From assembly GCA_017984755.1 (NCBI GenBank), contig JAGNYW010000007.1, forward strand, positions 61,121-125,120: DNA of 64,000 bases. The letters run 5' to 3'. The position numbers and the translations under genes were made by a program. Shown in pieces: positions 13,373 through 31,365 of the stretch (position 1 is the stretch's first letter; each line of letters begins with the position of its first letter). Source of the DNA: Methyloversatilis sp. GTDB lineage: Bacteria; Pseudomonadota; Gammaproteobacteria; Burkholderiales; Rhodocyclaceae. Under the pieces are notes generated by a model that did not search any database, was not told the DNA's origin, and saw only the letters and a list, made by a program, of their open reading frames with translations.

Positions 13373-13442
13373 GCCGCTGCCCTGCGAAAAAGTTGCGCGA
13401 GTTTAGCTGCATCGCCGCTGTTGCGATGCATCGGAAAGCGCG

Positions 13443-14060
13443 TCAGCCTGCGTTCAGCATGCCTTCGCGTTCGATGAAGGCGATGATGGAATCCAGGTTG
13501 TGGCCGGTTTTCATGTTCGAAAAGACGAAGGGCCGCTCGCCGCGCATTTTCTTCGCGTCGCGTTCCATGACCTCGAGCGAGGCGCCGACCATCGGTGCAA
13601 GGTCGATCTTGTTGATGATGAGCAGGTCCGACTTGCAGATGCCGGGCCCGCCCTTGCGCGGAATCTTGTCGCCGGCCGCCACGTCGATCACGTACAGCGT
13701 GAGGTCGGACAGTTCCGGGCTGAAGGTGGCCGCCAGATTGTCGCCGCCCGATTCGATCAGGATCACGTCCAGCCCGGAAAAGCGTGCATTGAGCCGCGCC
13801 ACCGCTTCGAGGTTGATCGATGCATCCTCGCGGATGGCAGTGTGCGGGCAGCCCCCGGTTTCCACGCCGATGATGCGTTCCGGCGGCAGCGCCTGGTTGC
13901 GCACCAGAAACTGCGCGTCTTCTTCCGTGTAGATGTCGTTGGTTACCGCCGCGATGTTGTAGCGGTCGCGCAGCGCAAGGCACAGCGCCAGTGTCAGCGC
14001 CGTCTTTCCCGAGCCGACCGGGCCGCCGATGCCGACGCGAAGCGGAGGTCTTGCCGTCAT
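13443..14060 (-). CDS. ureG: Urease accessory GTPase UreG
   Basis: A 205-residue SIMIBI-class GTPase that drives nickel delivery into urease with UreD, UreF and UreE. It has the P-loop [17 protein letters not shown] near residue 9, the metal-site motif [15 protein letters not shown] with the conserved CPH, the ESGGDNL switch, and NKIDLAP as the guanine-specificity motif. It is the last gene of the urease locus but is separated from ureF by a methyltransferase gene, whereas ureF-ureG are usually adjacent. Confidence 0.97.
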
Positions 14061-14093
14061 GTGTGTCGTCCTCTCTTGAAAGGGTGTGCGCGA

Positions 14094-15692
14094 TCAGCGG
14101 GCGCGGACGAACCAGTCCCATATTTCCTTCTGCGGCGTGCCGTCCCAGTGGCGCGGCCGTTCGAGCAGGCCTTCGGCCTCAAGCTGCCCGACCAGACCTT
14201 CGGGCAGCGATGCAAGCAGTGCTTCGGCTTCCGGGAAATGGCCGTAGTCGAAGGGCTTGCACAGGTCCCATTCGTAGAACACCTGTTCCGGCTCGATCAG
14301 CCGGAAGCCGGCGGCTTTCAGTTCGGCGGTGAAGATGCGCGGCGCGTGGTAGCCCTGCTGGTGCTGTCCGTCGTCGGCGAACAGCAGTCGTTCGCGTTCG
14401 AGCAGCTTGTTGTCGCGGAATGCCCGCACCACACGCAGCGCGTGATGAACGTTGTTGCCGCTCTTCTTCCAGGCGGAGGCGAACCACAGCCGTTCGAGGT
14501 ATTCGGTGGTGTCGAACGAAGGCAGGATGAACAGTGCATCGCCCGAAGAGCCGAGCAGGTCGCGGCAGGCCTTGAAGGTGCGCACGACATCGCGGCGATC
14601 CGGAAACAGGATGGAATTGGCGGCGATGACGAGGTCGAAGCCGTCGGTGCCGATGCGGTCCGCGAGACCGAGACCGGCGGCGTTCACGTTGCGCATGTCG
14701 GCGGTCAGCGCATGAATGCCGCGTTCGGCGGTGATCACACGCTGTGCCTTTGCAAGCGCCGCGTTTCGCATGACTTCGGACTGGTCCGCCAGCACCAGGC
14801 AGTCGAGCTTCGTGACCTCGGCCGCCACCAGCGCATCGACCAGCGTGCCCGGGCCGCAGCCCAGTTCGATCACGCGCAGCAGCGGGCTGGTGCGCCGCCC
14901 TTCCGCGTGGCGCAGGCGCGCCTCTTCCGCCTTGTCGCGCAGATGGGTGACCAGCGGGTTGCGCGGCGGCGACGCGCCATCCGGCGCCAGCATGGCGGGC
15001 GCGAACGGGCTGAGGATGAAATCGTGGTAGTTCGGCGCGATCGCCTCCCAGTCGATGGCGCCGTCGCGGTGCGGCAGCGGCTTGTAGCGCACGATCATGT
15101 GGGCGCCCGATTCGGCGTCGCGCACGGCGTTCCAGAACGTGTTGTCGGGAAAGAAGTCGGGGTTGCGTTCGAGCCAGGTGCCGTGCAGTTCGCGCGCCCA
15201 GCCCAGCAGCGCGCGCGAACGCACGTCGCTGGCGAAGCCGTTGCGGATCATTTCATTCACCAGATCCCACAGTCCGTAGCAGAACGCCGAATAGCGCAGC
15301 TGTTCCTCGATCGCCATCGAGCGGTGGAAGGCGTCGGTCTTGCTCGCGTCGAGGAAGTTCGGGTTGCGTATGCACTCCTTGAACACCTCGTCCCAGCGCG
15401 CGGCCAGATAGCGCTCGTTGGTATCGCGCTTGTCGTTCGCAGCCAGCCGCGCGGTCTCTTCGATCTGCTTGCTCATGACCGCGATCGTCGCGTCCGCGGC
15501 TTCCTTGTTGTCCTGCGTCTGCTGCTGCATTTCGGCGATCGTGCGGCGCGTCGTGTGGTGCATGACCCAGGCCGTGATCGCGGCAGCGAGGGCGGCCACC
15601 GCGGTGAAGGCGATGCCCACCTTCTGCCATTGCGCGGAGGGCGTCTCCGACAGGTAGTAGTCGATCGCCTGCCGCATCTGTTCGAAGTCCAT
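14094..15692 (-). CDS. Membrane-tethered SAM-dependent methyltransferase, unknown substrate
   Basis: A 532-residue protein. A single transmembrane helix lies at about 25-45, followed by a coiled-coil-prone, Gln-rich region (about 50-95) and a helical region (about 96-230) recalling DUF4760-type membrane proteins. A class I methyltransferase domain follows from about 270, with motif I ELGCGPGTLVDAL at 276-288 and later DLVIAANSILFP. The start at 15692 puts the helix at the N-terminus; the open frame extends upstream but that part is low-complexity and unlikely to be translated. It lies co-directionally between ureF and ureG. No known urease role exists, and the substrate is unknown. Confidence 0.8.
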   Translation of the reverse strand: MDFEQMRQAIDYYLSETPSAQWQKVGIAFTAVAALAAAITAWVMHHTTRRTIAEMQQQTQDNKEAADATIAVMSKQIEETARLAANDKRDTNERYLAARWDEVFKECIRNPNFLDASKTDAFHRSMAIEEQLRYSAFCYGLWDLVNEMIRNGFASDVRSRALLGWARELHGTWLERNPDFFPDNTFWNAVRDAESGAHMIVRYKPLPHRDGAIDWEAIAPNYHDFILSPFAPAMLAPDGASPPRNPLVTHLRDKAEEARLRHAEGRRTSPLLRVIELGCGPGTLVDALVAAEVTKLDCLVLADQSEVMRNAALAKAQRVITAERGIHALTADMRNVNAAGLGLADRIGTDGFDLVIAANSILFPDRRDVVRTFKACRDLLGSSGDALFILPSFDTTEYLERLWFASAWKKSGNNVHHALRVVRAFRDNKLLERERLLFADDGQHQQGYHAPRIFTAELKAAGFRLIEPEQVFYEWDLCKPFDYGHFPEAEALLASLPEGLVGQLEAEGLLERPRHWDGTPQKEIWDWFVRAR

Positions 15693-15808
15693 CGCCCGGT
15701 CTCCCCGTCTGTCGTCTGTCCGGATGTTATCGCCGCAGGGTTGAATCAGGTTGCATGGCGTCGTCCGGGTCGCGTCCGGGTGATGTCGGGCGGCTGGCGG
15801 CAGCACAT

Positions 15809-16486
15809 TCAGGACCGGAACAGCCTCGAATACTGCGTTTCGTGCCGGCAGCTGGCGATCGCCAGCCCCGGTGCGAAATTGCTCCAGTCCGCGCGTGGCA
15901 GATCGATGGCCGCCGCGACCCGCGACGGGATCGCCTCGCCCATCGTCATCAGCAGGCGCTGGCCGGCGGTCTGCCCGAGCGGCACCGCCTTGATCGCTGC
16001 CATGACCTGGTTTTCCGCCCAGGTCCAGGCCCACGCGGTCAGGGCCGGTTCCACCGGCACGCCGAGCGCCACCGCGGCGCCGGACCAGGCGGTCGGGAAG
16101 GCCGGCTCGGAGACGTCCGCCAGCACGTCGGCCACGTGCCGGCAGGCGTCGAGCGCCTTGAGCAGCTGTCCGCACGAATAGCCCATCTGCACGGTTTCGG
16201 CGCGCAGCTCCGCCGCCTCGCGGCTGGCCAGGTAATCGTCATTCAGTGAAGTGAGGGTGACACCGTCATCGACCGCCCAGGCCCGCATCAGCGCGGCCAG
16301 CAGCGGCAGTTCGAAGCGCGCCATGCCGGCGTCGAGCACCGCGAGTATCCAGTCGCCGGCGTCCGCCTCGGTGCGTATCGCACCGCTGTCGACCTGCCAT
16401 TCCAGCCCCTGCGAATAACTGAACGCGCCGACCGGCAGCGCGGGGCTGGCCAGCTGCAGCAGGCGCACCAGTGCCAGCGGCGTCAT
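15809..16486 (-). CDS. ureF: Urease accessory protein UreF
   Basis: A 225-residue all-helical chaperone that acts as a gate for UreG GTP hydrolysis in the urease activation complex. It begins MTPLALVRLLQLASPALPVGAFSYSQGLE, matching UreF's hallmark LPVGAFSYSQGLE. I use ATG 16486. A TTG at 16504 overlaps the ureE stop and would add six residues. It is adjacent to ureE. A 116-base gap to the methyltransferase gene follows. Confidence 0.95.
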   Translation of the reverse strand: MTPLALVRLLQLASPALPVGAFSYSQGLEWQVDSGAIRTEADAGDWILAVLDAGMARFELPLLAALMRAWAVDDGVTLTSLNDDYLASREAAELRAETVQMGYSCGQLLKALDACRHVADVLADVSEPAFPTAWSGAAVALGVPVEPALTAWAWTWAENQVMAAIKAVPLGQTAGQRLLMTMGEAIPSRVAAAIDLPRADWSNFAPGLAIASCRHETQYSRLFRS

Positions 16487-16500
16487 GGCCGGGTCTTTCG

Positions 16501-16998
16501 TCAAGGATTGCCGCCCGAAAAAAGGTGCAGCTTCGCGCCGGTTTCCTCCGCGTGGGCGTGCGCATGGTGAGCGGGCTGGCCGCCATAGGCGCCGGCTTCC
16601 GGCTCGAACGGTGCGCGCGTTTCGGTCACGTCGAGCCCGAGCCCGGTCAGCATCTGCGCCAGCACATGATCGGCTGCCAGCCGCAGCAGGCCGGGCTGCA
16701 CCTCGACCGCGACATGGCGGTTGCCCAGGTGATAGGCGGCGCGCGCGATCAGCCGCGCATCGTCGCTGCGCGCCTCGATCACGTCTTCCGCCGCCGACGC
16801 GACCTGCACGGTGCGCCCGTCCCTTCCGGCCAGCCGGTCGCCGCTGCGCAGTATCGTGCCGCGCGGCAGGAACAGTCCCACTTCTTCGCCCGAATCAAGG
16901 TGCGTGCGCAGCCGGCACTTGGCGCGCAGCTCGAACGACAGCGTCAGTGTTTCGACCGGCACGGCGTCGGCCGGCGCGAAGGTTTCTATGAGCAGCAT
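16501..16998 (-). CDS. ureE: Urease accessory nickel metallochaperone UreE
   Basis: A 165-residue protein with an N-terminal peptide-binding domain, a C-terminal ferredoxin-like domain and a modest metal-binding tail (HHAHAHAEE near residue 143). UreE dimers donate Ni2+ to UreG. The tail has five histidines, fewer than the long His tails of some homologues. Its ATG lies one base after the stop of the upstream ATPase gene, and no good ribosome site is visible in between. It may therefore depend on translation of that gene, although its ancestral upstream neighbour would be ureC. Confidence 0.95.
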   Translation of the reverse strand: MLLIETFAPADAVPVETLTLSFELRAKCRLRTHLDSGEEVGLFLPRGTILRSGDRLAGRDGRTVQVASAAEDVIEARSDDARLIARAAYHLGNRHVAVEVQPGLLRLAADHVLAQMLTGLGLDVTETRAPFEPEAGAYGGQPAHHAHAHAEETGAKLHLFSGGNP

Positions 16999-16999
16999 T

Positions 17000-18181
17000 T
17001 CAGTCGTCGATCAGATCAAGTTGTGGGCCTGCGGGTGGCCAAGCTCCGGTCGAGCGACGCTGTTCGAACCAGCGGGTCATGGCAGCATCATCAAGCGCGT
17101 ACTCGCCGCGTGCCGACTTCCACACCAGAGCGGGTGTCCGCTGGCGCAGCGACTCCAGCGCGTTCTGGGCTTTTTGTGCGGACACCGTGCCACCGGTTTT
17201 GTCGCGATAGAAACGCAGTGCATCGGCGTCATAGGGACGGAAGTTCGAACCCTGCTCGAGCATGCGCCAGAGCACGGCTTGTTCGAGTGGTTTGAGGCCG
17301 AGGAAATCCGATTCCATCTGCGCCTCGTCGTCATGCAGACGTTGATCCGCGAAGCTCAGAACGACCGTTTCAAAGCGCCCCTCAATGCCGGACAAGGGAC
17401 TCAAGGCACGGCCAAGCGCATCCATGAAAAACTGCGGGCGACAGCCAAAGCGCAGAAAAGCCTCGAACAGTGCCTGCCGGTCTGCCGGAGCGAGGTCGGG
17501 TCTGTCCTTCTCGATCAGCTGGGCGATGTGTTCGATGAAATCAGCGCCCAGCTCCGGCATGCGCTGGATCTGCGAGCCATAGAACGGTGCGCCGCCGGTA
17601 TTCACCAGGCGCAGCAACTTGTCGCGGTCAGAGCCTGACATGACCAGCATCAACTTGATGTCGTCCGGCCGGTTGAGCTGGTCGCGCGAAGACTTCAGTG
17701 CCGCCATGGCGGTCTCGCCGGCTTCGCTGGTCAGCGCGTGCTGTGCTTCGTCGATGATCAGCGCGATGGGTGCTTTCGCCGCCGCGTTCAACGCTCGCAG
17801 CGCCTCGGGCAAGGTGGTGCCATCGATCTTGCCGATCTTGCTGGTATCGATCTTGAGCCAGCCCGCGATGCTCACGTTTTCAAGCCCGGCTGCCTTCGCG
17901 CCCTTTGCAAGCAGTCCCAGATGCGGCCCGAGTGCATGGCCGATCGCTTCGGCGATGAGTGAGCCCGGATCACGTCTGCGGTCCGACCACAGATCGACAT
18001 AGACCACCACACATCCACGGCGCTCCAGTTCCGGCTTGAGGTCGGCCTGCAGGAAAGTCGATTTGCCGGTCCGGCGAGGTGCCGCGAGGAAGAGCCCGTT
18101 GTGTGCATCGCCAAAGAGCACCTTGCCCAGCAAGGCGTCTGCAATTTGCGAGGCGAGCGTTCCCCGGTCGAAGTGGATCAT
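17000..18181 (-). CDS. P-loop ATPase (ORC/STAND-like AAA), unknown role
   Basis: A 393-residue protein. Walker A APRRTGKST lies at 34-42, and Walker B ALIIDEAQHAL at about 140-150. MLVMSGSDRDKL resembles sensor 1, and the C-terminus is helical and winged-helix-like. The fold resembles archaeal-type ORC/Cdc6-like ATPases seen in mobile and defence loci. The stop is one base from ureE's start, while the gene start is preceded by a strikingly AT-rich promoter-like stretch. It belongs positionally to the restriction island. Whether it assists the Hsd enzymes, controls the locus, or is independent cannot be told. Confidence 0.8.
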   Translation of the reverse strand: MIHFDRGTLASQIADALLGKVLFGDAHNGLFLAAPRRTGKSTFLQADLKPELERRGCVVVYVDLWSDRRRDPGSLIAEAIGHALGPHLGLLAKGAKAAGLENVSIAGWLKIDTSKIGKIDGTTLPEALRALNAAAKAPIALIIDEAQHALTSEAGETAMAALKSSRDQLNRPDDIKLMLVMSGSDRDKLLRLVNTGGAPFYGSQIQRMPELGADFIEHIAQLIEKDRPDLAPADRQALFEAFLRFGCRPQFFMDALGRALSPLSGIEGRFETVVLSFADQRLHDDEAQMESDFLGLKPLEQAVLWRMLEQGSNFRPYDADALRFYRDKTGGTVSAQKAQNALESLRQRTPALVWKSARGEYALDDAAMTRWFEQRRSTGAWPPAGPQLDLIDD

Positions 18182-18183
18182 GA

Positions 18184-18243
18184 TTTATCCATTATTATAT
18201 GAAAATAGATAATTTATTATATTGTATATAAAAATAGATAAAT
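18184..18243 (-). promoter_or_regulatory. AT-rich promoter-like segment before the ATPase gene
   Basis: About 60 bases are nearly all A/T in an otherwise GC-rich locus. On the minus strand they contain a TATAAT hexamer and AT-rich upstream sequence ending close to the ATPase start. The motif TTATCTATTTT occurs twice, at the two ends, and could be a direct-repeat operator. It could drive the ATPase gene and, by readthrough, ureE-ureF-(methyltransferase)-ureG. Confidence 0.5.
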
Positions 18244-18285
18244 CAGCTTGTCCGGGTGATTTTCTCATGTGCGAGAGAAAAGCAG

Positions 18286-19743
18286 TTATCGCGCCAGCCC
18301 GGCCGCCACATCGCGGAAGGACTGCAGCGCCGCTTCGAGGTGCTCGATGATTTCCTGCTGCAGCACGTCCGGAGGCGGCAGGTCGTCCAGCTTGTCGAGG
18401 CTGTCGTCCTTCAGCCAGAAGATGTCCAGACTGGCCTTGTCGCGCGCCACCAGTGCCTCGTGCGTGAAATGGCGGAAGCGCTCGCTGTCCACCCGTTCGT
18501 GCCGGTTGTCGGGCCGATAGCACGCGATGAAGTCGTGCAGGTCCGCAAGCTTCAGCTGCCGGGTCTTCAGCGTGAAGTGCATGTTGGTGCGCAGGTCGTA
18601 GATCCACACCCCTTTTGTGTGCACGCGCCCGTCCTTCGGGCGCGCGTCGAAGAACAGCACGTTCGCCTTCACGCCCTGCGCGTAGAAGATGCCGGTCGGC
18701 AGGCGCAGCAGCGTGTGCACGTCGCAGGTTTCCAGCAGCTTGCGGCGTATCTTCTCGCCCGCACCGCCTTCGAACAGCACGTTGTCGGGCAGCACCACGG
18801 CGGCCTGACCGTTGTCCTTCAATATGGTGACGATGTGCTGCAGGAAGTTGAGCTGCTTGTTCGACGTGGTTTCCCAGAAGTCCTGCCGCTGGTAGGTAAG
18901 CGCATCGCGGTCTTCGTCGCCGTCTTCATTGGTGATGGTCATGCTGCTCTTCTTGCCGAAGGGCGGATTGGCCAGCACGTAGTCGAAGCGTTTGCCGGGG
19001 TCGGAAATCAGCGCATCTGTGCGTTCCACCAGCGGTTCGCCGTCCAGCTCGCCGATGTTGTGCAGAAACAGGTTCATCAGGCACATGCGGCGCGTGCCCG
19101 GCACGATTTCGTTGCCGTGGAAGGTCTGGTCGCGCAGGAATTCCTTCTGCCGCTTGTTCAGGTTGGCGCCCGGCCGGTTCAGCCAGTTGTACGCGCCGAG
19201 AAAGAAGCCGCCGGTGCCGCAGGCCGGGTCGGCGATGGTCTTCATCGGCGCCGGCTGCACGCAGGCCACCATCGCCTCGATCAGTGCGCGTGGCGTGAAG
19301 TACTGGCCAGCCCCGCTCTTGGTGTCTTCCGCGTTCTTCTGCAGCAGGCCTTCGTACAGGTCGCCCTTGGTGTCGGTGTCGAGGCTGATCCAGCGCTCGG
19401 CGTCGATCATCTGCACCAGCCGCGCCAGCTTGGCCGGGTCCTGGATCTTGTTCTGTGCCTTGAAGAAGATAGCGCCCAGCATGCCCGGTTCCTGCCCCAG
19501 CTTGTGCAGCATGCTCAGGTAGTGCGCCTCCAGCGGTTCGCCGGTACGGCTGCGCAGCGCCGTCCAGTCACAGTTTTTCGGAATGTGCGTGTTCCGGTTG
19601 TACGGCGGCTCGGAATATTCGTGTGCCAGCTTCAGGAACAGCAGATAGGTGAGCTGTTCAAGGTAGTCACCGTAACCCACGCCGTCGTCGCGCAGCGTGT
19701 GGCAGAAATTCCAGACCTTCTGGACGAGGGAAGAGGCGTTCAT
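18286..19743 (-). CDS. hsdM: Type I restriction-modification DNA methyltransferase subunit
   Basis: A 485-residue N6-adenine methyltransferase. The N-terminal helical domain (VQKVWNFCHTLRDDGVGYGDY) is typical of HsdM. The SAM motif is DPACGTGGF at 172-180, and the catalytic motif IV is NPPFG at 259-263. With HsdS it methylates the recognition sequence to protect host DNA. ATG 19743 is preferred over an in-frame TTG at 19752. Length and motifs are complete, so it looks functional. It is separated by about 1 kb of repeat-rich DNA from the other hsd genes, which is unusual. Confidence 0.95.
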   Translation of the reverse strand: MNASSLVQKVWNFCHTLRDDGVGYGDYLEQLTYLLFLKLAHEYSEPPYNRNTHIPKNCDWTALRSRTGEPLEAHYLSMLHKLGQEPGMLGAIFFKAQNKIQDPAKLARLVQMIDAERWISLDTDTKGDLYEGLLQKNAEDTKSGAGQYFTPRALIEAMVACVQPAPMKTIADPACGTGGFFLGAYNWLNRPGANLNKRQKEFLRDQTFHGNEIVPGTRRMCLMNLFLHNIGELDGEPLVERTDALISDPGKRFDYVLANPPFGKKSSMTITNEDGDEDRDALTYQRQDFWETTSNKQLNFLQHIVTILKDNGQAAVVLPDNVLFEGGAGEKIRRKLLETCDVHTLLRLPTGIFYAQGVKANVLFFDARPKDGRVHTKGVWIYDLRTNMHFTLKTRQLKLADLHDFIACYRPDNRHERVDSERFRHFTHEALVARDKASLDIFWLKDDSLDKLDDLPPPDVLQQEIIEHLEAALQSFRDVAAGLAR

Positions 19744-19827
19744 GGGCAGCAAGGGGTTCCGGCGAGCGTCCGGGATAACAACGGTTGTCGCAAGCCAATG
19801 TTTTAAATGAAAAAGTTAATCAATCCA

Positions 19828-19859
19828 GGTTTGTTATCCGGCGGCATGGATAACAAACC
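19828..19859. repeat. Palindrome copy 1 (12-bp arms, 8-bp spacer)
   Basis: GGTTTGTTATCC (19828-19839) and GGATAACAAACC (19848-19859) form a perfect 12-base inverted repeat around an eight-base spacer. It is the copy nearest hsdM, about 85 bases upstream of that gene's start. It begins a direct repeat extending to about 19909, which matches 20214-20294. Confidence 0.9.
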
Positions 19860-20213
19860 GTTCTTACCGGCGGTTCTGGCTGACCGGCCGGGCTTGCGAG
19901 TTCCTGTGGCTAGGCGCCTCTGTCTGTACGGCTCAGCGAAGCGGTCGAGCCACGGTTCGATCAAGTAACGGACAAGTTTTTTCCGGGTCAAGTCATTGAA
20001 GAATAAAAATAAATCATGATGGCCGACTCTACCCGAGCTTCCATCAAGTACCCGGCAGGCAAATCAAACTCATCTGGGCAGCACGGCAGCAGTAATAAGT
20101 GAAACGGCCCATTTTGGACTTCAAAACCGACCCGTCTTCGACTGGTGTCTGCGTGGCCGGGATAACAAAAAAATTACAGGCCAATGTTTTTAAAACGATT
20201 TTTCACCCACCTC

Positions 20214-20244
20214 GGTTTGTTATCCAGCCAAACGGATAACAAAC
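20214..20244. repeat. Palindrome copy 2 (11-bp arms, 8-bp spacer)
   Basis: GGTTTGTTATCC (20214-20225) faces GGATAACAAAC (20234-20244), again across eight bases but with an unrelated spacer (agccaaac versus ggcggcat in copy 1). Conserved arms with a variable, fixed-length spacer are what a dimeric binding site looks like. The downstream sequence parallels copy 1 through GGTTCTGGCTG to GCGAGCTCCTGTGG. Confidence 0.9.
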
Positions 20245-20282
20245 TTTTCTTCCCGGCGGGTTCTGGCTGTGGCCGGGCGTGC

Positions 20283-20367
20283 GAGCTCCTGTGGTAACAC
20301 ACCGAACTCCTGTGGCAAGCCGGTCAAGCTCCTGTGCCAACGAGCCGAGCTCCTGTGGCAAGGTTCC
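20283..20367. repeat. Tandem repeat, four units of 21-22 bases
   Basis: Four consecutive units share the core AGCTCCTGTGGCAA: 20283-20303, 20304-20325, 20326-20346 and 20347-20367, with lengths 21, 22, 21 and 21. A fifth, isolated core (GAGTTCCTGTGG) sits at 19898 in the related direct repeat. On the minus strand each unit contains ACAGGAG, which resembles a ribosome-binding core. One frame reads as Leu-x-x-Glu-Leu heptads until the 22-base unit shifts it. Confidence 0.85.
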
Positions 20368-20725
20368 GCCCGACAGTGCTCGTCACCGCAGCGATCATGC
20401 AGTCCGGCGGCTTGCCGAGACGGCTGTGCAGGCCGGTCTTCCGGGTCACTGAACGTGTTCCATTGTTTCACTGAAAAGGACACGCATACCGAGTTCGGTG
20501 CATCGATGTCCGATATGCAAGTCATTGTTTTGTAGTGGTTGTATCCACCCATAACGGACATTCCTGAAGGCCTTGGCGGTCTGTTTCAGAGACTTTGTTC
20601 TTTATGAATGAACCCGCTTCGACGCAGGGATTGCATGCGCGTCACCCATCTGGCTTGTGCAGGCTCGTGGATAATAAAAACTTTACAAGTATCGGTTTTT
20701 AAACGTTTTTAATGGGCGGCTGCCG

Positions 20726-20751
20726 TTGTTATCCGGCACGCTGGATAACAA
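20726..20751. repeat. Palindrome copy 3 (9-bp arms, 8-bp spacer)
   Basis: TTGTTATCC (20726-20734) and GGATAACAA (20743-20751) are separated by eight bases. This copy lies immediately beyond the 3' end of the AlbA_2 gene. Upstream T/A runs and GGATAAT near 20669 parallel the flanks of copies 1 and 2. Confidence 0.88.
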
Positions 20752-20777
20752 ACTGCCCAATCTCTGCCGGGTCCGGT

Positions 20778-22277
20778 TCAATCCGGGGCGTCGTTGTCCT
20801 CCAGCCTGCCGGGCAGCAACTCCTCCTGCCCGATGCCGTTCTGCAGTGGCTTGTAATAGACCATGTTGCGCTTGGCCCGGGTGGAGTCGGCCACCAGCAC
20901 ACCCTGATCGACCCAGCGCTTCAGCAGCTTCGATGCCTTCAGCGTGTCGAGGCCGGCGATCCTGCACAGATCGGCGTTGCCGATTGCGCCATTGCGATCC
21001 ATCCAGTCGCTCACTTGCTCCCAGACCGGCGGGCGCTCCTCGTTCAGCAGCGTGACCATGATGGCCTCCTGCACCTGTTCCTTCAGCTCCGAATAGCGCG
21101 GCGGGAACAGCTTGCTGGCCTGCATCACGCTGAACATCATGCGCACACCTTCGCCAGCATCGACATTGGGCGGGTCGGGAAACTCGCGCAGGTTGCGGGC
21201 CAGCAAGGGGTTGCGCGAGAACGAGCCGGCACGCTGGATATTGGCGGCGCTGATCTTGCCGGCGAACAGGCCGGGGCTTTCGATTTCGATGCGGCTGTCG
21301 AAAATGCGGATCCGGATGTCGCGGTTCAGGTGGTAGTCGCGGTGAATCACCGCGTTGGTGATGGCTTCCTTGATCACCCGCTCCGGGTAGCGGTGCACGG
21401 TGCGAAAGCCGGATGCCGCCAGCGTCAGCCCCTCGGCCAGTTCATCCATCAGGTAGGTGTTTGCGCGCGCGATCTGTTGGTACAGCGGGCCGGAAATCGT
21501 TTTCGGCGTCTTCTTCAGGTTCGGAACTTCGCCCTCTTCGACCTTGTTGCCGCGGTAATGGAATACTCGTATGTCCGCACGCGTGCCCGATGCCGCCAGC
21601 AGGGCGCCCGGCTCGTCGGCGAACAGCAATACCGCAGCGCGCAGAGGTTTCAGTTCATTGCCGACCTTCTTGGCCAGACTGATGCGGAACAACTGCTCCG
21701 GCAGCTCGCTGCCCGACAGCCCACGTGCCTGCCGGAACATTCGCCAGGCATCGGTATCGAGCAGCGCGAAATCGACATCCACCGGCTCCGATTCCGCGCT
21801 GCGCACACCGCGCCGGTACGACAGCTCGGTGATTTCGGCCGCATTCATGGCCCGGTTGCTCGCCTCGCCGCGCATCCAGGTGCCGCCGTCGAGGATGGAG
21901 TGCACCTTGTCACTGCGCGGTATGAGGACGCGCAGCAAGGCACCCTGCGATCCGTCGCGCAATGTGCAGGGCAGGCGCTGCAACTTCACATCCTCCACCG
22001 GCGGCTGCAGATGCGTCGCCAGCTTGCGCAGCAACTCGTCAACGGCTTCCGGGTTTTCGTCGCTGCCGTACAGGCGGTCTGCGCCTTTCGCCTTGGCGGG
22101 GTCTTCCATGCCCAGCAACAGCTGTCCGCCCTCGGTATTTGCCATCGCGCAGATCGTTTCGAGCGCCTTGCTCACCATCTTGCCGGACACGCGCTTGCAT
22201 TCGAAGCGCCGGCTTTCAGGCGCCTGCAGCATCAACGTGATCGCAGCACGGCTCTGTTCCGGCGTGGCTTCATGCAT
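20778..22277 (-). CDS. AlbA_2/Schlafen-type ATP-binding protein of the restriction island
   Basis: A 499-residue protein with an N-terminal AlbA_2 (Schlafen-like, DNA/RNA-binding) domain, visible as ESRRFECKRVSG and CAMANTEGGQLLLGMED at residues 21-59. A C-terminal GHKL-type ATP-binding domain has AITNAVIHRDY at 305-315 with the conserved Asn. A winged-helix tail follows. Such proteins commonly sit within type I restriction loci but their biochemical role is unsettled. The start overlaps hsdS by eight bases, so hsdR-hsdS-this gene are one translational unit. Confidence 0.88.
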   Translation of the reverse strand: MHEATPEQSRAAITLMLQAPESRRFECKRVSGKMVSKALETICAMANTEGGQLLLGMEDPAKAKGADRLYGSDENPEAVDELLRKLATHLQPPVEDVKLQRLPCTLRDGSQGALLRVLIPRSDKVHSILDGGTWMRGEASNRAMNAAEITELSYRRGVRSAESEPVDVDFALLDTDAWRMFRQARGLSGSELPEQLFRISLAKKVGNELKPLRAAVLLFADEPGALLAASGTRADIRVFHYRGNKVEEGEVPNLKKTPKTISGPLYQQIARANTYLMDELAEGLTLAASGFRTVHRYPERVIKEAITNAVIHRDYHLNRDIRIRIFDSRIEIESPGLFAGKISAANIQRAGSFSRNPLLARNLREFPDPPNVDAGEGVRMMFSVMQASKLFPPRYSELKEQVQEAIMVTLLNEERPPVWEQVSDWMDRNGAIGNADLCRIAGLDTLKASKLLKRWVDQGVLVADSTRAKRNMVYYKPLQNGIGQEELLPGRLEDNDAPD

Positions 22278-23832
22278 GGGTGGTTTTCCTCGCGCGTCGG
22301 GCCGCGCCACTGCCGGCACGCGCTTCGCGCTCGGCGCGGATGCGCGCGAGCAGTGCGCTGGCGGGTTCGTCGTTCGGGTCTTGCGGCACGAGCTGGCCGG
22401 AGAAGGCGGCTTTGAGGAGGTTTTTGCGCTGGGCGGCGGATTGTTTCAGCCCCGTCGCCAATGCCAGCTCGACTGCATGTAGCGTCTCGGCATGCTGTGC
22501 GAAAAGTTCTTCGATACACCTTTGCTCGTGTGCTGGCGGTACCGGAATTGGCGTCGACGTAATGTCAGGCTGGGAAATCTTGTAGATACCTGCAGAAGTT
22601 CGGGCTCGCCGCTCTATGTGCGATCTCACGATATGGGCGTTCCAAACAAGGTTTATCCAAGACGGAGCCACAACAGCATCCAGCACGCGAAGCCTGATCA
22701 TCGTATCGGGATATGCGATAGATGCACTCGTCTCGCCGACCCACCCCATTCGACCTACGAGGGAGAGGGAGCCGTTCCCCCGGGCGATTAGCAAGTCACC
22801 TCCCGTAACCCAGAACTGTCGAGCCTCTGACTCCGACCAATCGCCGCATTTGTGCTCATCAAGATCGACGCAGCCATCCCTTATCGCGGTCAGTCGAAGG
22901 ACTTTCGGACCGGAATTGGCGCTGGGGACCGAGCGACCATTTGCAAGATCGTCTGGAGAGAGCTGATCCACGCTCGCCCAGACCCAGCCCTCAGGCAAGG
23001 TGGGAAAATTGGCGGTGTCGGGCTGCACCGGCTCTGAATACTTGTCCTGCCAGCCCTTCGGCGGTGTCTTGCCCTGTTCGCTGAATTTCGCCCGTTGTCG
23101 TGCTTCCCAGCGGGCGCGGCGTTCGGTGAGGATGCGGGCCAGCAGGTCGGCACCGGTTTCGACGGGTTCGCCGCGCGCGGTGCGTTCGGCGCGCCAGTCG
23201 GCGGTGAGGGCGCCTTCGACGGCGGCTTTCAGCAGCGACTGCCGGTACAGCGCCAGCTTCTTCTGCGCCGCCTTCAGTTCGGCCACGCCGGCGTCGAGGT
23301 CGGACAGCAGTTCTTCGAGTTTTTCGACGATGCGGGTTTGTTCGGCGCGCGGTGCAACCGGCAATTGGTTAGCGCAGAGCCAATTGGTCGGCACACGCAT
23401 TTGCCCGGCGCTACCGGTCATGTTCTGACGGGCAAACTCTCGGAAAGCTTTTTGCGACAAGAAGTATGCGAGCCACTTCGGCTCGACGGCATCGCCCGCT
23501 CGAAGGACATGGAATTCGGTTGATCCGTACGCGATGTGATTCGGAAGCGTAGGGACCAACGCGACCTTGCCGTTCTCCATGCATGGGGTGATTTTCGCGA
23601 AGAGCACATCGCCTGCAGTGAACGACGTGTAGCCCTTTCGGACTTCGCCGAGAGGGCGCTGCCGTGAAACGTCGATTCCGCCGAACTCTTCGGTTACCGC
23701 CGTCATCGGCACGAAATGAACAGCGACCGAATCTGCTCCGGGCAACGGACTGAATGAACGTGGATTGACCTCGGCAACCGCTTCGATCGGGGCATGGCTC
23801 CAAGAGTACGGAAGCGGTGGAGTTGTGCTCAA
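22270..23832 (-). CDS. hsdS: Type I restriction-modification specificity subunit
   Basis: A 520-residue protein with the two-target-recognition-domain layout. TRD1 covers about residues 1-160. A conserved helical spacer follows at 163-210 (PRAEQTRIVEKLEELLSDLD and onward), then TRD2 at about 265-430, and a second conserved helical region from PPAHEQRCIEELF. Both helical repeats are intact, so it should recognise a bipartite sequence. The sequence recognised cannot be predicted by eye. It overlaps hsdR by four bases (ATGA). Confidence 0.94.
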   Translation of the reverse strand: MSTTPPLPYSWSHAPIEAVAEVNPRSFSPLPGADSVAVHFVPMTAVTEEFGGIDVSRQRPLGEVRKGYTSFTAGDVLFAKITPCMENGKVALVPTLPNHIAYGSTEFHVLRAGDAVEPKWLAYFLSQKAFREFARQNMTGSAGQMRVPTNWLCANQLPVAPRAEQTRIVEKLEELLSDLDAGVAELKAAQKKLALYRQSLLKAAVEGALTADWRAERTARGEPVETGADLLARILTERRARWEARQRAKFSEQGKTPPKGWQDKYSEPVQPDTANFPTLPEGWVWASVDQLSPDDLANGRSVPSANSGPKVLRLTAIRDGCVDLDEHKCGDWSESEARQFWVTGGDLLIARGNGSLSLVGRMGWVGETSASIAYPDTMIRLRVLDAVVAPSWINLVWNAHIVRSHIERRARTSAGIYKISQPDITSTPIPVPPAHEQRCIEELFAQHAETLHAVELALATGLKQSAAQRKNLLKAAFSGQLVPQDPNDEPASALLARIRAEREARAGSGAARRARKTTHA

Positions 23833-26600
23833 GCCACCAACTCCTCATTCATTTCCTTCATCACGTCATCGAGCTGTTCGCCGAACAGTGACCACGCCTT
23901 CTGCAGCCCGCCCCGGCCGGCGAAGGCGGCGTAGTCGAAGTCGTCGCGTTCGATGCGGCAGCTGCTGGCGATGTGGTCCTTGATCAGGCGCAGCCATTCG
24001 GTCTGTTCCGGTGTGAAGGCGGTGGCGCGCTGCGCGTTGTGGCGGAAGATCCACTCCTGGAAGCGGCGGTCGACCTGTTCGGCGAAAGGTTTCAGTTCGC
24101 CGTCGAGCCCGATGGCGAAGCGCACCAGCGCGATCAGGTCGGTGAGCTGACGGCGGGTGTCGCCGCCGCTGACCCGGGTGCCGCGCACGCGGGCGTAGGC
24201 GGCCCACAGCCGTTCGTTGGTCAGCAGCAGCGGCGGGCGGGCCAGGGTTTCATGCAGGTCTTCGATCATGTCGAAGGTGAGCGCGCGGCGCCGGTAGGGC
24301 TGCTGGTAGAAGAAGTTCAGCGCGTCGATGTCGTCGCGGTGCTGTTCGATGTACTCGGCGAAGCGGGCGATCACCTTGTTTGCCTCGCTTTCGGCCTGCG
24401 CGCTGTAGCCGGCGAAGGTGACGGTGTCGAGGTTGATGTGGTCGATCAGCTGTTCGCGCTCGCGGCGGGCGGATTCTATCTGGTCGCGCAGGTCGGGCCG
24501 GTCGAAGGGCGCGCAGGCGGCGGCCACGCGCAGCGTGCGGGCGGCGGCGAGTTCGGCTTCGGTCAGCGTGTCTTCGCCCAGTTCGATGCCGCGCGCGCGG
24601 GCGGTGGCGAGCGCGGTATCGACGATGCCGTCCGGGTTCAGCGCATTGATCAGTGCGCGGCCGAGTTCGCCGACCGGCACGCCGCCCGATGCTTTCTCGA
24701 TGCGCGCCTGTGCCTTGTCGTCGAGCTGTCTGGCGAGCCGCACCAGGCGGTTGGCCAGCGACAGCACGGTGTCGTCGTCGCGCTGGCCGATGGCGATGCC
24801 CTGCAGCAGATCCTTCAGCGCCACGCCCGGCTTCTTTTCGAGCGGGCGGCTATCGGTCTTCAGCGATTTTTCGACGCCGACCGCGTCGATCAGCACGAAG
24901 CGGGTCTTGGCGCTGTCGGCGCTGTTGCTCACCCGTCTCAGGTCGTCGAAGCCGAGGCTGCGCACGCCGCGGCCCTTCATCTGTTCGTAATAGCCGCGCG
25001 AACGCACATCGCGCATGAACAGCAGCACTTCGAGCGGCTTCACGTCGGTACCGGTGGCAATCATGTCGACGGTGACGGCGATGCGCGGGTGATAGTCGTT
25101 GCGGAAGCTGGCGAGCAGGCTGTCAGGGTCTTCATCGGTGCGGTAGGTGACCTTCTTGCAGAAGGCGTTGCCCTGCCCATACACCTCGCGCACGATCTGG
25201 ATGATGTCGTCGGCGTGGCTGTCGGTCTTGGCGAAGATGAGCGTCTTCGGCGTTTCGCGCCGGTTCGGGAAGATCTGCGTTTCCACGGCCTGCTTCATGG
25301 TTTCAATCACGCGGCGGATCTGGCTCGGGTTCACCACCGAGCGGTCGAGCTCGCGGCCGGTGTAGGCCTCGTCCTCTTCGGTCTGCGCCCAGCGCTTGCG
25401 GCGCGTCAGCCGGTCGCGGTGGTCGATGAATTCGCGCGCCTTCAGTTCGCCGCCCTTCTTCGTGACTTCGGTTTCGATCTCGTACACGTCGTAGCCGACG
25501 TTCACGCCGTCGGCGACCGACTGTTCGTAGGTGTACTCGGCGACGATGTTTTCGTTGAAGAAGCCGAAGGTGCGCTTGTCGGGCGTGGCGGTGAGGCCGA
25601 TCAGGAAGGCGTCGAAGTAGTCGAGCACCTGCTTCCACAGGTTGTAGATCGAGCGGTGGCACTCGTCGATGATGACGAAATCGAAAGCCTCGACCGGGAG
25701 GGCGGCGTTGTAGCGCACCAGCCGGGGCTGTTTGCCCGGTTGCAGCTCATGCAGCGAAATGTCGTCGGCGCTGTCGTCGATGGCGTCGCCGGACAGCACC
25801 GAATACATGCGCTGTATGGTCGAGATCACGACCTGCGCATGCGGGTCGATGCGCTGTCCGGCCAGACGCTGCACGTTGTACAGCTCGGTGAAGGTGCGGC
25901 CGTCGTCCGGCGGCGTGTAGGCCATGAACTCCTGATGCGCCTGCTTGCCGAGGTTGCGCGTGTCGACCAGGAAGAGCACGCGCTTGGCGCCGCCGAACTT
26001 GAGCAGGCGATACACGGCGGTGATGGCGGTGAAGGTCTTGCCGGCACCGGTCGCCATGTGTACCAGTGCGCGCGGCTTGTTCTGTGCCAGCGACTTTTCC
26101 AGCCCGGTGACGGCGGCGATCTGGCAGTCGCGCAGGTTGCGGGCGGGCAGTGCGGGCAGGTCTGCTGCGAGGCGGCTGCGCAGGGTGTCGGGCTGGCGCA
26201 GCCATTCGGCAAGCTGGCCGGGCGTGAAGAAGTGGAAGATTTCGCGCGAACGCGGCGACGGGTCACGACCATCGGTGAAACGGGTGATCTGGCCGGTGCT
26301 TTCGAACAGGAAGGGAAGCGGCGCCGCCCTGACGCGCCATTTGAGCGTGCTGCCGGCATAACGTGCGGTCTGGTCTTCGACGAAGGTGAGTATCGTCGCG
26401 TCCGACTTGGCTTCGATGACGCCGACCGCTTCGCGATCGATGAACAGCACGTAGTCGGCCGGACCCGTGTCGGTGGGGTACTCGCGAATGGCGATGCCAC
26501 GGCTCGCGCCGAGGTCGAACTGCCTCAGGTCCTGAACGACCCAGCCCGCCTGCTCCAGCCTTGCATCGATCTGCTGCCGCGCCTTGCCCTCTGGCGTCAT
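23829..26600 (-). CDS. hsdR: Type I restriction endonuclease subunit (motor and nuclease)
   Basis: A 923-residue translocase-nuclease. The N-terminal PD-(D/E)xK nuclease shows PADYVLF with Asp49 and VIEAK with Glu63 and Lys65. Walker A is MATGAGKT at 182-189 and the DEAD-family motif DECH at 312-315. VDMIATGTDV and GRGVRSLGF mark helicase motifs V and VI. The C-terminal part resembles the EcoEI-type R C-terminal domain. It cleaves unmethylated DNA after ATP-driven translocation. It is the first gene of its operon, so the nuclease is encoded before the methylase. Its ATG is 61 bases past the ureC stop, with a GGGGG-like site. Confidence 0.95.
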   Translation of the reverse strand: MTPEGKARQQIDARLEQAGWVVQDLRQFDLGASRGIAIREYPTDTGPADYVLFIDREAVGVIEAKSDATILTFVEDQTARYAGSTLKWRVRAAPLPFLFESTGQITRFTDGRDPSPRSREIFHFFTPGQLAEWLRQPDTLRSRLAADLPALPARNLRDCQIAAVTGLEKSLAQNKPRALVHMATGAGKTFTAITAVYRLLKFGGAKRVLFLVDTRNLGKQAHQEFMAYTPPDDGRTFTELYNVQRLAGQRIDPHAQVVISTIQRMYSVLSGDAIDDSADDISLHELQPGKQPRLVRYNAALPVEAFDFVIIDECHRSIYNLWKQVLDYFDAFLIGLTATPDKRTFGFFNENIVAEYTYEQSVADGVNVGYDVYEIETEVTKKGGELKAREFIDHRDRLTRRKRWAQTEEDEAYTGRELDRSVVNPSQIRRVIETMKQAVETQIFPNRRETPKTLIFAKTDSHADDIIQIVREVYGQGNAFCKKVTYRTDEDPDSLLASFRNDYHPRIAVTVDMIATGTDVKPLEVLLFMRDVRSRGYYEQMKGRGVRSLGFDDLRRVSNSADSAKTRFVLIDAVGVEKSLKTDSRPLEKKPGVALKDLLQGIAIGQRDDDTVLSLANRLVRLARQLDDKAQARIEKASGGVPVGELGRALINALNPDGIVDTALATARARGIELGEDTLTEAELAAARTLRVAAACAPFDRPDLRDQIESARREREQLIDHINLDTVTFAGYSAQAESEANKVIARFAEYIEQHRDDIDALNFFYQQPYRRRALTFDMIEDLHETLARPPLLLTNERLWAAYARVRGTRVSGGDTRRQLTDLIALVRFAIGLDGELKPFAEQVDRRFQEWIFRHNAQRATAFTPEQTEWLRLIKDHIASSCRIERDDFDYAAFAGRGGLQKAWSLFGEQLDDVMKEMNEELVA

Positions 26601-26661
26601 AAGCCCCCGCGCTCTGTCCGGTACCGGCCCGGATGGTAGCGCGAAGGGCTTGCCGTCGGCG

Positions 26662-28371
<1,710 letters not shown>

Positions 28372-28383
28372 GGTGCGGTCCGG

Positions 28384-28602
28384 TCAGCGGTCGCCGAACG
28401 GCGGGCGCGACGGCTTGCCGCGACGGTGCAGCAGGCGGGCACCGAGCGCGCCGACGATCACCGCGCCGACGGCCAGCGCCAGATGGTCGGGCTCGCTGAG
28501 CAGGTGCATCAGCGTGGCCAGCATGCTGTCGTGGTGGTCGCCCGAATGGGCCGAAGCGTAGCCTGCCGTGGCGAGTGCGAAAGCCAGAATCATCTTGATC
28601 AT
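28384..28602 (-). CDS. Small urease-linked membrane protein with His-rich segment
   Basis: A 72-residue protein. A signal-like helix ([18 protein letters not shown]) is followed by HSGDHHDS, a potential metal-binding cluster, then a second hydrophobic helix (about 40-57) and a basic tail. Its start overlaps the ureB stop by four bases and it ends 12 bases before ureC, so it is built into the urease operon. The signal-HSGDHHD-helix layout recalls the N-terminus of HupE/UreJ nickel transporters but is far shorter. A nickel-related role is an inference. Confidence 0.7.
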
Positions 28603-28925
28603 CGTGTTTCTCCGTGGTTGTCGAGCGGGCCCTGGACGCGACCCTGGAATCCGAATACGCGGCGGTCGCCCGCCAGCGCGACGAGCTGCACCGTGCGCAT
28701 CTGGCCGGGTTCGAAACGCACCGCCGTGCCGGCCGCGATGTCGAGCCGGTGACCGCGCGCAGCGGCACGGTCGAAATCGAGTGCGTCGTTCGTTTCGGCG
28801 AAGTGGTAATGCGAGCCGACCTGCACCGGGCGGTCGCCGGTGTTGCGCACGTCCAGCGTCAGGGTCGGGCGGTTGGCGTTGAGTTCGATGTCGCCGTCGG
28901 CGACCTGCATCTGTCCGGGAATCAT
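28599..28925 (-). CDS. ureB: Urease beta subunit
   Basis: A 108-residue structural subunit of the (alpha-beta-gamma)3 urease. It has the family start [17 protein letters not shown], and [12 protein letters not shown] near the middle. A GAGAGG ribosome site precedes the ATG. It is separated from ureA by about 200 bases, which is unusual for this operon, and overlaps the small membrane gene downstream by four bases. Confidence 0.97.
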
Positions 28926-29128
28926 GCTGTCCTCTCGTTGCGTGCCGTTCGGGTTCGGGTGCTGTCGTGATGGTGTGCCGGTGGCATCGCGGCGGTGTCC
29001 GGATCCCCGGTTCCGCCGGATCGCGCACCAGAACGGTCATCGCGCCCGCCTTTGGTGCCCGTGCCCGGCGCCCCGGCAGACCCCGGGGCTGCGCGTGCGC
29101 GCAGCAGGCCGGATGCTTCACCCGTCAT
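28922..29128 (-). CDS. Possible small ORF in the ureA-ureB gap (doubtful)
   Basis: A 68-codon frame starts ten bases after the ureA stop and ends in an ATGA overlap with ureB. GTGAGG, seven bases upstream, could act as a ribosome site. The product is Gly/Ala/Arg/Thr-rich with no predicted fold, and a PPAHHHDS stretch. Good spacing on both sides favours translation, while composition argues for a chance frame in GC-rich DNA. No function is suggested. Confidence 0.25.
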
Positions 29129-29137
29129 GGCGCGGCC

Positions 29138-29440
<303 letters not shown>

Positions 29441-29482
29441 CTTTGTTCTTTTCGCATGCTGTCGGTTGCGTCAGGTGAGGCT

Positions 29483-30352
29483 TCAGGTCGCCCAGATCCG
29501 TGGTGCCTGTGCCGCGAGTCCGGTCATCGTCGGGCGGACCAGCGACCAGATATGCATGAACCATGCCCGGGCGGCCTGCGTGCAGGTGCCGCGGTAACGG
29601 GCGACCAGCAGTGCCGGCAGTCGCGTGACGCCGACGTCACCCGACATGCAGGGTGCGGCACGACAGTCGGCGAGCAGTGTGTCGTCGGCATCGAAGCCGG
29701 CGCACAGCAGGGTGCCGAACACCGGTGCGCCGGCCAGCCCGGCCTGCGAATGCAGCAGCGGCGAATTGCCGGCGATGCGCGCCTGTTCCAGCCACAGCGT
29801 GCGGCCTGCCTGCGTGATGCGGGTGTCGAGGTGCAGCGCACCGCGCGTGAAACGCTCGCCGCTCGCAGTGCGGCCGAGGCAGTAGAGGTCCATGCCGATG
29901 AAGCGCGCGCCGGTTTCCAGTTCGACCAGGCTGGCCACGTGTGCCAGCGCACCGTCGAACACGATGCTTTCCTGCGGCAGCCATTCGATCGTGGCGTCGG
30001 CGGCGACCTGCAGCGCCAGCGTCGAGCCGGCGTCCCGGCCGGCGGCAGCGCTCCTGCTGCCGTACCACTTGCCGGCCCCCGGCGTGGTGATCAGTGCATG
30101 CGCGCCGGATGCAGCCGAAATGTCCATGCGCAGGTGATCGCCGCCGGCGATGCCGCCTGGCGGATGAAGCAGCAGCGTGTGGCATACGGCGTCGCCTTCC
30201 GGGTAGAGCGCCTTCTGCACGCGCAGCGGGCCGCTGTGCTCGCGCCGTGCCAGCACGGTACGTCCGCCCGCCGCGCGGTAACCGAGTGCAATGCTGGCCT
30301 GCCAGCCGGCGGCATCGAGCGCCGGCGCCGGGTGTCGTGTCGCTTTCGTCAT
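29483..30352 (-). CDS. ureD: Urease accessory protein UreD/UreH
   Basis: A 289-residue accessory protein, first gene of the urease locus. It binds apo-urease and forms the tunnel with UreF and UreG for nickel delivery. The family motif is LLHPPGGIAGGDHL, followed by TPGAGKWY and ESIVFDGA. The promoter must lie in the 116 bases upstream, shared divergently with the serine protease gene; no obvious sigma54 or NtrC-type site was found there. Confidence 0.95.
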   Translation of the reverse strand: MTKATRHPAPALDAAGWQASIALGYRAAGGRTVLARREHSGPLRVQKALYPEGDAVCHTLLLHPPGGIAGGDHLRMDISAASGAHALITTPGAGKWYGSRSAAAGRDAGSTLALQVAADATIEWLPQESIVFDGALAHVASLVELETGARFIGMDLYCLGRTASGERFTRGALHLDTRITQAGRTLWLEQARIAGNSPLLHSQAGLAGAPVFGTLLCAGFDADDTLLADCRAAPCMSGDVGVTRLPALLVARYRGTCTQAARAWFMHIWSLVRPTMTGLAAQAPRIWAT

Positions 30353-30468
30353 GGTGCGATGGTAATCCGTGGCGGCTGCGGAACCGATGCTGCGGTTGTC
30401 GACACCAAGTCAGGCGCGGTTCAGCACGACGTTCAATGCGACTTTAAACATTCCCGGCGGGAGCTCAC

Positions 30469-31320
30469 ATGCATCGATCCTGCAGGCCGTCCCCGCTCCG
30501 TACCTTGGTCGCGGCGCTGTCGATCACACTGAGTACGGCAGGTGTTGCCGACGATGGCTCGCTGTCGTCCGAAGCGCTCTACGAGCGGGTACCTCTGGCG
30601 GCACGCACGGTGTTCCAGCTGTATGCCAGCAGTCCGCGCGGCACTTCGACCGGATCGGCCGTGATGGTCGGCCCGGGCCTGCTCGCCACCAGTTGCCACG
30701 TGATGGGCGAAGCGACGCATGCGGTGGTGATCCAGACCGGCGAAGCGATCCAGGTCGATCTGGTGGCCGCCGACTGGCGGCGCGACCTGTGCATCCTGAA
30801 GTCGGACCAGATCGGCACGCGCGCAGCGCCGCTGATGCCGGCCAGTCAGGTGAACAAGCGTGATGTCGTGTTCAGTCTGGGTTTCACGGCAGGGCGCTTC
30901 GCCTACGACGTCGGTGAGGTGAAGCAGCTCTACGCGATGGGTGGCAGCCGCGTGCTGCGCGGCAGCGCGGCGTTCGCAGCCGGTGCGTCGGGCGGCGGGC
31001 TGTTCGACCGCGAAGGTCGCCTGGTCGGCATCCTCACCTTCTACAAGCTGTCCGGCGACAAGAGCATGTTCTTCGCCATACCGGCCGACTGGGTGCCGCA
31101 GGTGCTGGCCGGCGGCATTCAGCCGCGCGCTGAGGGGCAGACGCCTTTCTGGGCCGAAACCGGTGCGACGCTCGAGCCCTTCCTGCAGGCGGTGCAGTTC
31201 GAGCACGAAGGGCGCTGGGATGCCCTTGCGCAGTATTGCCGCCTGTGGCTGATCGATCAGCCCGATTCAGTCGAGGCGCGCGAGGCGCTCGAGCAGGCGC
31301 TGTCGCGCCGCGGCGGTTGA
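30469..31320 (+). CDS. Secreted trypsin-like serine protease
   Basis: A 283-residue protein with a signal peptide (hydrophobic to about residue 27, cut near TAGVADD). A chymotrypsin-fold domain follows, with His77 (SCHVMG), Asp106 (RRDLCIL) and Ser174 (GASGGGLF), so the catalytic triad is complete. The C-terminal 70 residues are helical and resemble a single TPR-like hairpin rather than a PDZ domain. That makes it a Deg-like but PDZ-less enzyme, probably periplasmic. A GGGAG site precedes the ATG. The substrate is unknown. Confidence 0.82.
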   Translation: MHRSCRPSPLRTLVAALSITLSTAGVADDGSLSSEALYERVPLAARTVFQLYASSPRGTSTGSAVMVGPGLLATSCHVMGEATHAVVIQTGEAIQVDLVAADWRRDLCILKSDQIGTRAAPLMPASQVNKRDVVFSLGFTAGRFAYDVGEVKQLYAMGGSRVLRGSAAFAAGASGGGLFDREGRLVGILTFYKLSGDKSMFFAIPADWVPQVLAGGIQPRAEGQTPFWAETGATLEPFLQAVQFEHEGRWDALAQYCRLWLIDQPDSVEAREALEQALSRRGG

Positions 31321-31365
31321 ATTGTTCGATACCATGAGCGCATAACTTATCCGACCGGTTTCGCG

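Follow-up and report, generated by a model that had tools for sequence, protein, structure and literature searches.

A type I restriction–modification cassette in the ureC–ureE junction of a Methyloversatilis urease operon

Gene Organization of the Split Urease Locus

The window analysed here is a stretch of 64,000 nucleotides from Methyloversatilis sp. (GenBank assembly GCA_017984755.1, contig JAGNYW010000007.1, positions 61,121 to 125,120 of the forward strand), belonging to a draft genome of 3.27 Mb that is 93.8% complete (G000; below, G labels denote genomes and L labels restriction–modification loci). Its urease operon is divided between ureC and ureE by a cassette of type I restriction–modification (RM) genes, which by sequence comparison is real, old and patchily kept at a recurrent site, being neither private to this genome nor recent.

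Read along the minus strand, the locus begins with ureD (29483-30352), ureA (29138-29440), ureB (28599-28925) and ureC (26662-28371), the latter with the Urease_alpha and Amidohydro_1 domains and its active-site motifs, as the final gene ahead of the insertion. After the ureC–hsdR spacer (26601-26661) come hsdR (23829-26600), with ResIII and EcoEI_R_C domains and nuclease-like and helicase motifs, and hsdS (22270-23832, from a putative start codon), with a Methylase_S domain and an open reading frame (ORF) overlapping that of hsdR. They are followed by a gene with AlbA_2/Schlafen and HATPase_c_4 domains (slfn; 20778-22319), which fills the exchangeable accessory position separating hsdS from hsdM, and by a non-coding gap of 1,034 base pairs (bp) without a recognised gene (19744-20777), in which three three-half-site elements are found. 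Next are hsdM (18286-19743, likely ATG at 19743), with N6_Mtase and HsdM_N domains and an NPPF motif; the hsdM–ATPase spacer (18182-18285), with 27% guanine plus cytosine (GC) and an AT-rich leader that contains TTATCT twice; and an AAA_22 ATPase gene (17000-18181) with a predicted ORC/Cdc6-like fold. The initial gene past the insertion is ureE (16501-16998), then ureF (15809-16504) and ureG (13443-14060), after which come trkA and trkH. Regarding composition, the cassette genes have 61-66% GC and ureD, ureC, ureE, ureF and ureG 63-71%, while the gap before hsdM has 53%.

The original prediction had described ureD-A-B-C and ureE-F-G as split by hsdR, hsdS, the AlbA_2/Schlafen gene, hsdM and the ATPase, and Pfam together with the sequence confirms it. 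The claimed co-directionality also holds, every gene lying on the minus strand, as do the spacers, one of 61 bases that separates the ureC stop (26662) from the hsdR ATG (26600) and one of a single base that parts the ATPase stop (17000) from the ureE ATG (16998). An assembly chimera or a chance arrangement is ruled out, because two independent genomes possess the identical ureC–hsdR junction and the same bases past hsdM. The ATPase–ureE junction and a further insertion between ureF and ureG are known from one draft contig only.

Restriction–Modification and Urease Gene Content

By motif search, HsdR contains D..EAK, DECH, QMKGRGVR and TGAGKT, which are motifs of a PD-(D/E)xK-like nuclease and an SF2 helicase. 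HsdM matches N6_Mtase (3.5e-67) and HsdM_N in Pfam and, with its NPPF motif, is identified as an N6-adenine methyltransferase, and HsdS is recognised as a specificity subunit by Methylase_S of Pfam and by Specificity_I of PADLOC (3.2e-135); matches to the NCBIfam type I models fell below their cut-offs. By its genes, domains and motifs, the hsdR-hsdS-hsdM set is a complete type I RM system. The nickel-urease set is also complete, with ureA, ureB and ureC plus the accessory ureD, ureE, ureF and ureG and with its motifs present, including the H246 region of ureC, and the motifs of the ATPase were found as well.

Empty and Occupied Sites in Related Genomes

UreC was present in 46 of the 101 genomes searched, the source genome counted, and in 44 of these it was possible to measure how far ureC lies from the C-terminal domain of UreE (UreE_C), leaving out G016 (split contigs) and G098 (no listed UreE match). 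In addition, 20 ureC regions were compared, 12 from congeners and eight from other genera of the family. The ureC–ureE site is empty in nine of the 12 congeners, with ureE lying 29-120 bp past the stop codon of ureC; ureC and UreE_C are 240-346 bp apart in these nine, compared to 9,877 bp in the source genome, where ureC and ureE are not adjacent. Two congeners, G005 (M. universalis EHg5, which is locus L052) and G008, carry hsdR-hsdS-slfn-hsdM at matching junctions without the ATPase, and a third, G009, has an insert of about 1 kb. In the eight regions from other genera, ureE lies at most about 170 bp from ureC. Outside the genus, 28 of the 31 measured distances are 386 bp or less, two, at 699 and 1,051 bp, reflect a longer spacer or an insert, and G075 is rearranged; no insert comparable to the cassette was found in these 31 genomes.

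The split had been interpreted as an inserted defence cassette, with the suggestion that empty sites be sought in related genomes; this comparison was run, and the interpretation is upheld by the nine empty congener sites and by the adjacent genes in 28 of the 31 genomes outside the genus. The possible counter-case, the same arrangement in every relative, was not seen, as two of the 12 congeners carry the cassette. The site behaves as a defence hotspot, with empty, hsd, hsd plus ATPase and DUF3800 states among the 13 genomes of the genus. Regarding the marks of an integrase island, the window has no tRNA gene, and no integrase or transposase occurs among the scanned cassette ORFs. A literature search, covering titles and the starts of abstracts, returned no description of urease genes interrupted by RM genes.

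Of the 12 congeners, 11 encode a second alpha subunit of urease that is 56-57% identical, and UreE_C is matched once per genome in all 13 genomes of the genus. As the second alpha subunit is found neither in G008 nor in the incomplete source genome, the split operon appears to be the only urease of these two.

The ureC–hsdR spacer is homologous across the three carriers (G000, G005 and G008), and its initial 34-40 bp or so persist in G009, whose insert opens with a 34-bp stretch that is 91% identical to this left spacer (local alignment score 60; the best of 200 shuffles scored 28) and then encodes a DUF3800 protein. A homologue that is 73% identical occupies the hsdS–hsdM slot of the same RM family in Azoarcus taiwanensis (L123, 14490-15317), and in L096 a segment of 42 residues past hsdS, where the contig ends, matches at 57%. 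In the simplest reading, the G009 insert is likely a cassette with DUF3800 in the accessory slot that lost hsdR, hsdS and hsdM, DUF3800 itself being a candidate defence gene.

Accessory Genes and the ATPase

Relatives of HsdR were used to collect loci of the RM family, of which the best 80 of 225 were kept. Among these 80, ure genes were found in the available flanks, some of them incomplete, only at L052; close Schlafen homologues were found at seven loci, L052 included, and ATPase homologues (61-69%) at four, always directly past hsdR. ATPase relatives also occur in four of 368 other genomes of the class, without an hsd homologue in the fetched flanks, and a strict tie of the ATPase to the RM family was consequently dropped. 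The ATPase is thus best described as a passenger that travels with this family now and then without being tied to it, and in the source genome it sits after hsdM.

Directly past hsdM, TAACTGCTTT is common to the three carriers and continues into the ATPase leader in the source genome only. The hsdM–ATPase spacer therefore starts like the hsdM–ureE spacer of the other carriers before passing into this leader, and the ATPase is absent from the ureC–ureE site of G005 and G008. From these junctions, the ATPase is best read as a later addition, at this site in the source genome only. Its structure model, with a predicted local distance difference test (pLDDT) score of 75.5, resembles archaeal AAA and ORC/Cdc6 proteins; the model of the AlbA_2/Schlafen protein was poor (mean pLDDT 54.5) and was set aside.

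Age and Descent of the Cassette

When the three carriers are compared at 4-fold sites, hsdR differs by 0.178-0.200, hsdM by 0.180-0.224 and slfn by 0.212-0.309, and in the same carriers the values are 0.182-0.225 for ureC, 0.200-0.228 for gyrB, 0.255-0.329 for parE and 0.24-0.33 for ureE, ureF and ureG; hsdR and hsdM resemble ureC and gyrB in this respect. Taken over the ORFs in or near the window, those of the cassette among them, the median is 0.298 against G005 (16 ORFs) and 0.294 against G008 (18 ORFs). A recent arrival is excluded, because hsdR and hsdM differ by about 0.18-0.22 at these sites between species. Amino acid identity among the carriers is 93-94% for HsdR and 49-66% for HsdS, and HsdM is 96-97% identical in the other two carriers; from the low HsdS values, target specificity has probably been swapped between carriers. 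On a gyrB-parE-recA tree, the carriers do not form a clade.

Separately, recA of the source genome (G000:C79:10217-11005) is unusually distant from those of G008 and G005, at 0.41-0.44 of 4-fold sites, above gyrB and parE.

Operator-like Element before hsdM

The gap before hsdM contains the palindrome TTGTTATCC-N8-GGATAACAA, present in the source genome in proximal (19831-19856), middle (20217-20242) and distal (20726-20751) copies on the minus strand, with third half-sites at 19773-19781, at 20160-20168 and, with one mismatch, near 20669-20677. There are also three copies in the gap of G008 and four in that of G005, and the third half-site (up to two mismatches) lies 73-75 bp along in nine of the 10 copies. 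With up to two mismatches, the palindrome was found nowhere else in the three carrier genomes and not once in the 10 other genomes of the genus.

The element was then surveyed at 68 loci with hsdR and hsdM located, namely 66 of the best 80 together with those of the source genome and G008, using greedy ORF lists, which include shadow ORFs, for spacing and motif positions only. With the sequence left free, the 200 bp before hsdM gave matches at 14 of the 68 loci (11 of 65 outside Methyloversatilis), counted without kinship correction. The third-site geometry of 73-75 bp was seen at 12 of the 68, nine of the 65 outside the genus having it (L066, L084, L098, L102, L105, L111, L120, L123 and L126). 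As controls, the 200 bp before hsdR gave five matches in 68, none at 73-75 bp, random windows gave 13 in 664, one of them at 73-75 bp, and shuffles gave two in 340. The letters of the half-sites vary from locus to locus (TTGTTATCC, TTTATTATC, TTCATTATC and TTTGCTTTC), yet the three sites broadly co-vary, which points to a putative protein that recognises the half-site triplet before hsdM. A candidate binder here is the AlbA_2 protein, although some loci with the element lack an AlbA_2 gene: a strict tie of the element to the Schlafen gene was rejected, as L105 and L120 have no detected homologue and L126 only a distant one. An RNA switch, with half-sites 1 and 3 competing for half-site 2, is less favoured, because the near-constant spacing of 73-75 bp speaks for DNA binding; Rfam gave no match in the cassette, the gap before hsdM included.

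The same gap holds, at 19940-20070 on the minus strand, TACTTGAT-type motifs that by eye resemble those before hsdM in L110 and L115 and are perhaps relics of another accessory module.

Transcription and Origin of the Arrangement

Candidate control regions lie before hsdM and before the ATPase. The start of ureE is one base past the ATPase in the source genome and about 40 bp past hsdM in G005 and G008, and no terminator-like site was found on the minus strand between 20100 and 16000. Because of this short spacing and the lack of such a site, a transcript shared by hsdM and ureE-F-G is most likely, so that the three maturation genes would most likely be read at least partly from a putative hsdM promoter. 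Urease maturation may, as originally proposed, depend on readthrough of the cassette or on a promoter that the cassette itself brings. A sealed cassette, sharing nothing with ureE-F-G that have a promoter of their own, could find room in G009, where the stretch of more than 130 bp from the DUF3800 stop to ureE could hold a promoter; however, the closeness of ureE to the ATPase or hsdM in the carriers and the absence of a terminator-like site from hsdM to ureE in the window make this unlikely. It is likewise speculative, and on balance doubtful, that urease maturation has been captured by the RM circuit, with a cassette-specific regulator and a new class of three-half-site operator setting both the methyltransferase level and nickel-urease activation; if true, the state of the defence system would tune nitrogen metabolism.

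We consider it probable that the old type I RM cassette at the ureC–ureE junction was kept, stripped, lost or exchanged after its entry, and that ureE-F-G are most likely read at least in part from the hsdM promoter. A complete cassette, consisting of hsdR, hsdS, an accessory gene, the operator region and hsdM, would have entered the junction in an ancestor of Methyloversatilis or early in the genus. It would then have been kept, stripped down, lost or allele-exchanged between species, the exchange probably occurring through homologous recombination in the flanking ure genes, and the copy of the source genome would later have gained the ATPase module past hsdM. As all genes point with the operon, transcription of the urease structural genes would start on the ureD side as usual. 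For ureE-F-G, behind hsdM and here also the ATPase, it would most likely start, at least in part, at the hsdM promoter with its operators and in the leader of the ATPase, and a cassette-encoded protein may regulate the element before hsdM.

Several observations weigh against this account. The part examined showed neither a target duplication nor an integrase or transposase that would account for its entry; words shared by the edges have at most nine bases, long duplications and inverted repeats around the whole cassette not having been searched. In G000 and G005 a 9-mer, CCTTCGCGC, occurs both in the left spacer and at the start of ureE; as it is not listed for G008, it was not counted as a target-site duplication. 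The insert of G009 has no trace of the hsdM end, and the four genomes that share a clade with G009, within which it nests, all show comparably clean spacers, so that simple vertical loss misfits without exchange or several losses. By hand count on the gyrB-parE-recA tree, a history of three gains is no costlier in steps than a single gain with losses. As for transcription, weak minus-strand terminator-like hits lie between ureC and hsdM, 18 being found overall against 14.9 expected, which is about chance, and a sigma-70 consensus scan of 13000-31500 found no promoter where 2.6 were expected, a null that neither backs nor excludes the shared transcript. Finally, hsdR and hsdM are among the lowest 4-fold divergences of the 16 and 18 compared ORFs, and some transfer between species after their split is therefore possible.

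This last observation also suits a single allele that homologous recombination carried from one Methyloversatilis species to another well after divergence, as few of the neighbouring genes are as little diverged as hsdR and hsdM and the occupied site of G009 stands within an otherwise clean clade. However, ureC is equally low, also between non-carriers, the hsd values are far above zero, and 150-bp windows of ureC and ureE in G009, G000 and G005 revealed no recombination edge (the last part-window of each gene being uncovered), and such late transfer is a possible history but the less likely one. Alternatively, ureC–ureE could be a preferred target at which each carrier acquired its cassette separately or recently, in agreement with the scatter of the carriers on the tree and with the ATPase and the ureF–ureG methyltransferase, which show genes still entering the operon. 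Against it, the left spacer and the initial bases past hsdM are common to all three carriers, and their HsdR proteins are 93-94% identical when the next relative, among the best 80 of 225 loci, reaches 81%; recent insertions are ruled out by the divergence, and independent ones seem quite improbable.

Relation to Known Systems

The RM genes resemble EcoEI-type systems, with hsdR (EcoEI-like C-terminus), hsdS and hsdM bearing the usual domains and motifs, and differ from the usual type I RM in the accessory gene between hsdS and hsdM, the operator-like array before hsdM and the location among urease genes. As in the E. coli immigration control region, a defence hotspot between core genes (PMC12707154), core-gene flanks are fixed and the defence content is exchangeable; unlike that region, the slot lies within a co-directional metabolic operon, and no integrase or tRNA anchor was found here. 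The embedded genes and repeated palindromic operators recall the RptR-controlled type I RM island of E. coli, whose sites are three 6-bp TAGCTA palindromes before rptR (PMC12255303), whereas the present element has 26-bp palindromes with a half-site at 73-75 bp and precedes hsdM. Operons are among the places where RM genes occur, and mobile chromosomal RM genes travel as a unit (PMC3031569); the cassette is alike in this respect but has no transposase among its genes and merely short shared words at its edges.

What is new is the place of the cassette, its persistence and the operator-like element, the RM system itself being of an already known type. A single genus that has empty and occupied alleles, and one apparently stripped, allows one to see how a defence system persists in the long term inside a metabolic operon, raising the question of whether a defence promoter drives enzyme maturation genes, and of what binds the three-half-site element before hsdM.

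Other Features of the Urease Operon

A methyltransferase-like ORF (14094 to about 15800, minus strand, with a putative 5' end) lies between ureF and ureG, where the 12 congeners leave no room for it, and appears private, having no match at E <= 1e-20 among 273 other genomes of the class. Upstream, the ureA–ureB (28926-29137) and ureB–ureC (28372-28598) spacers exceed 200 bp, as they also do in the 11 congeners that show the two of them; in the eight other family members, the ureB–ureC spacer is short in seven and the ureA–ureB spacer in four. Lastly, the Rfam family 5_ureB_sRNA matches 27933-28216 on the plus strand with 146.6 bits, antisense to the 5' part of ureC, a match that may simply mirror coding conservation.

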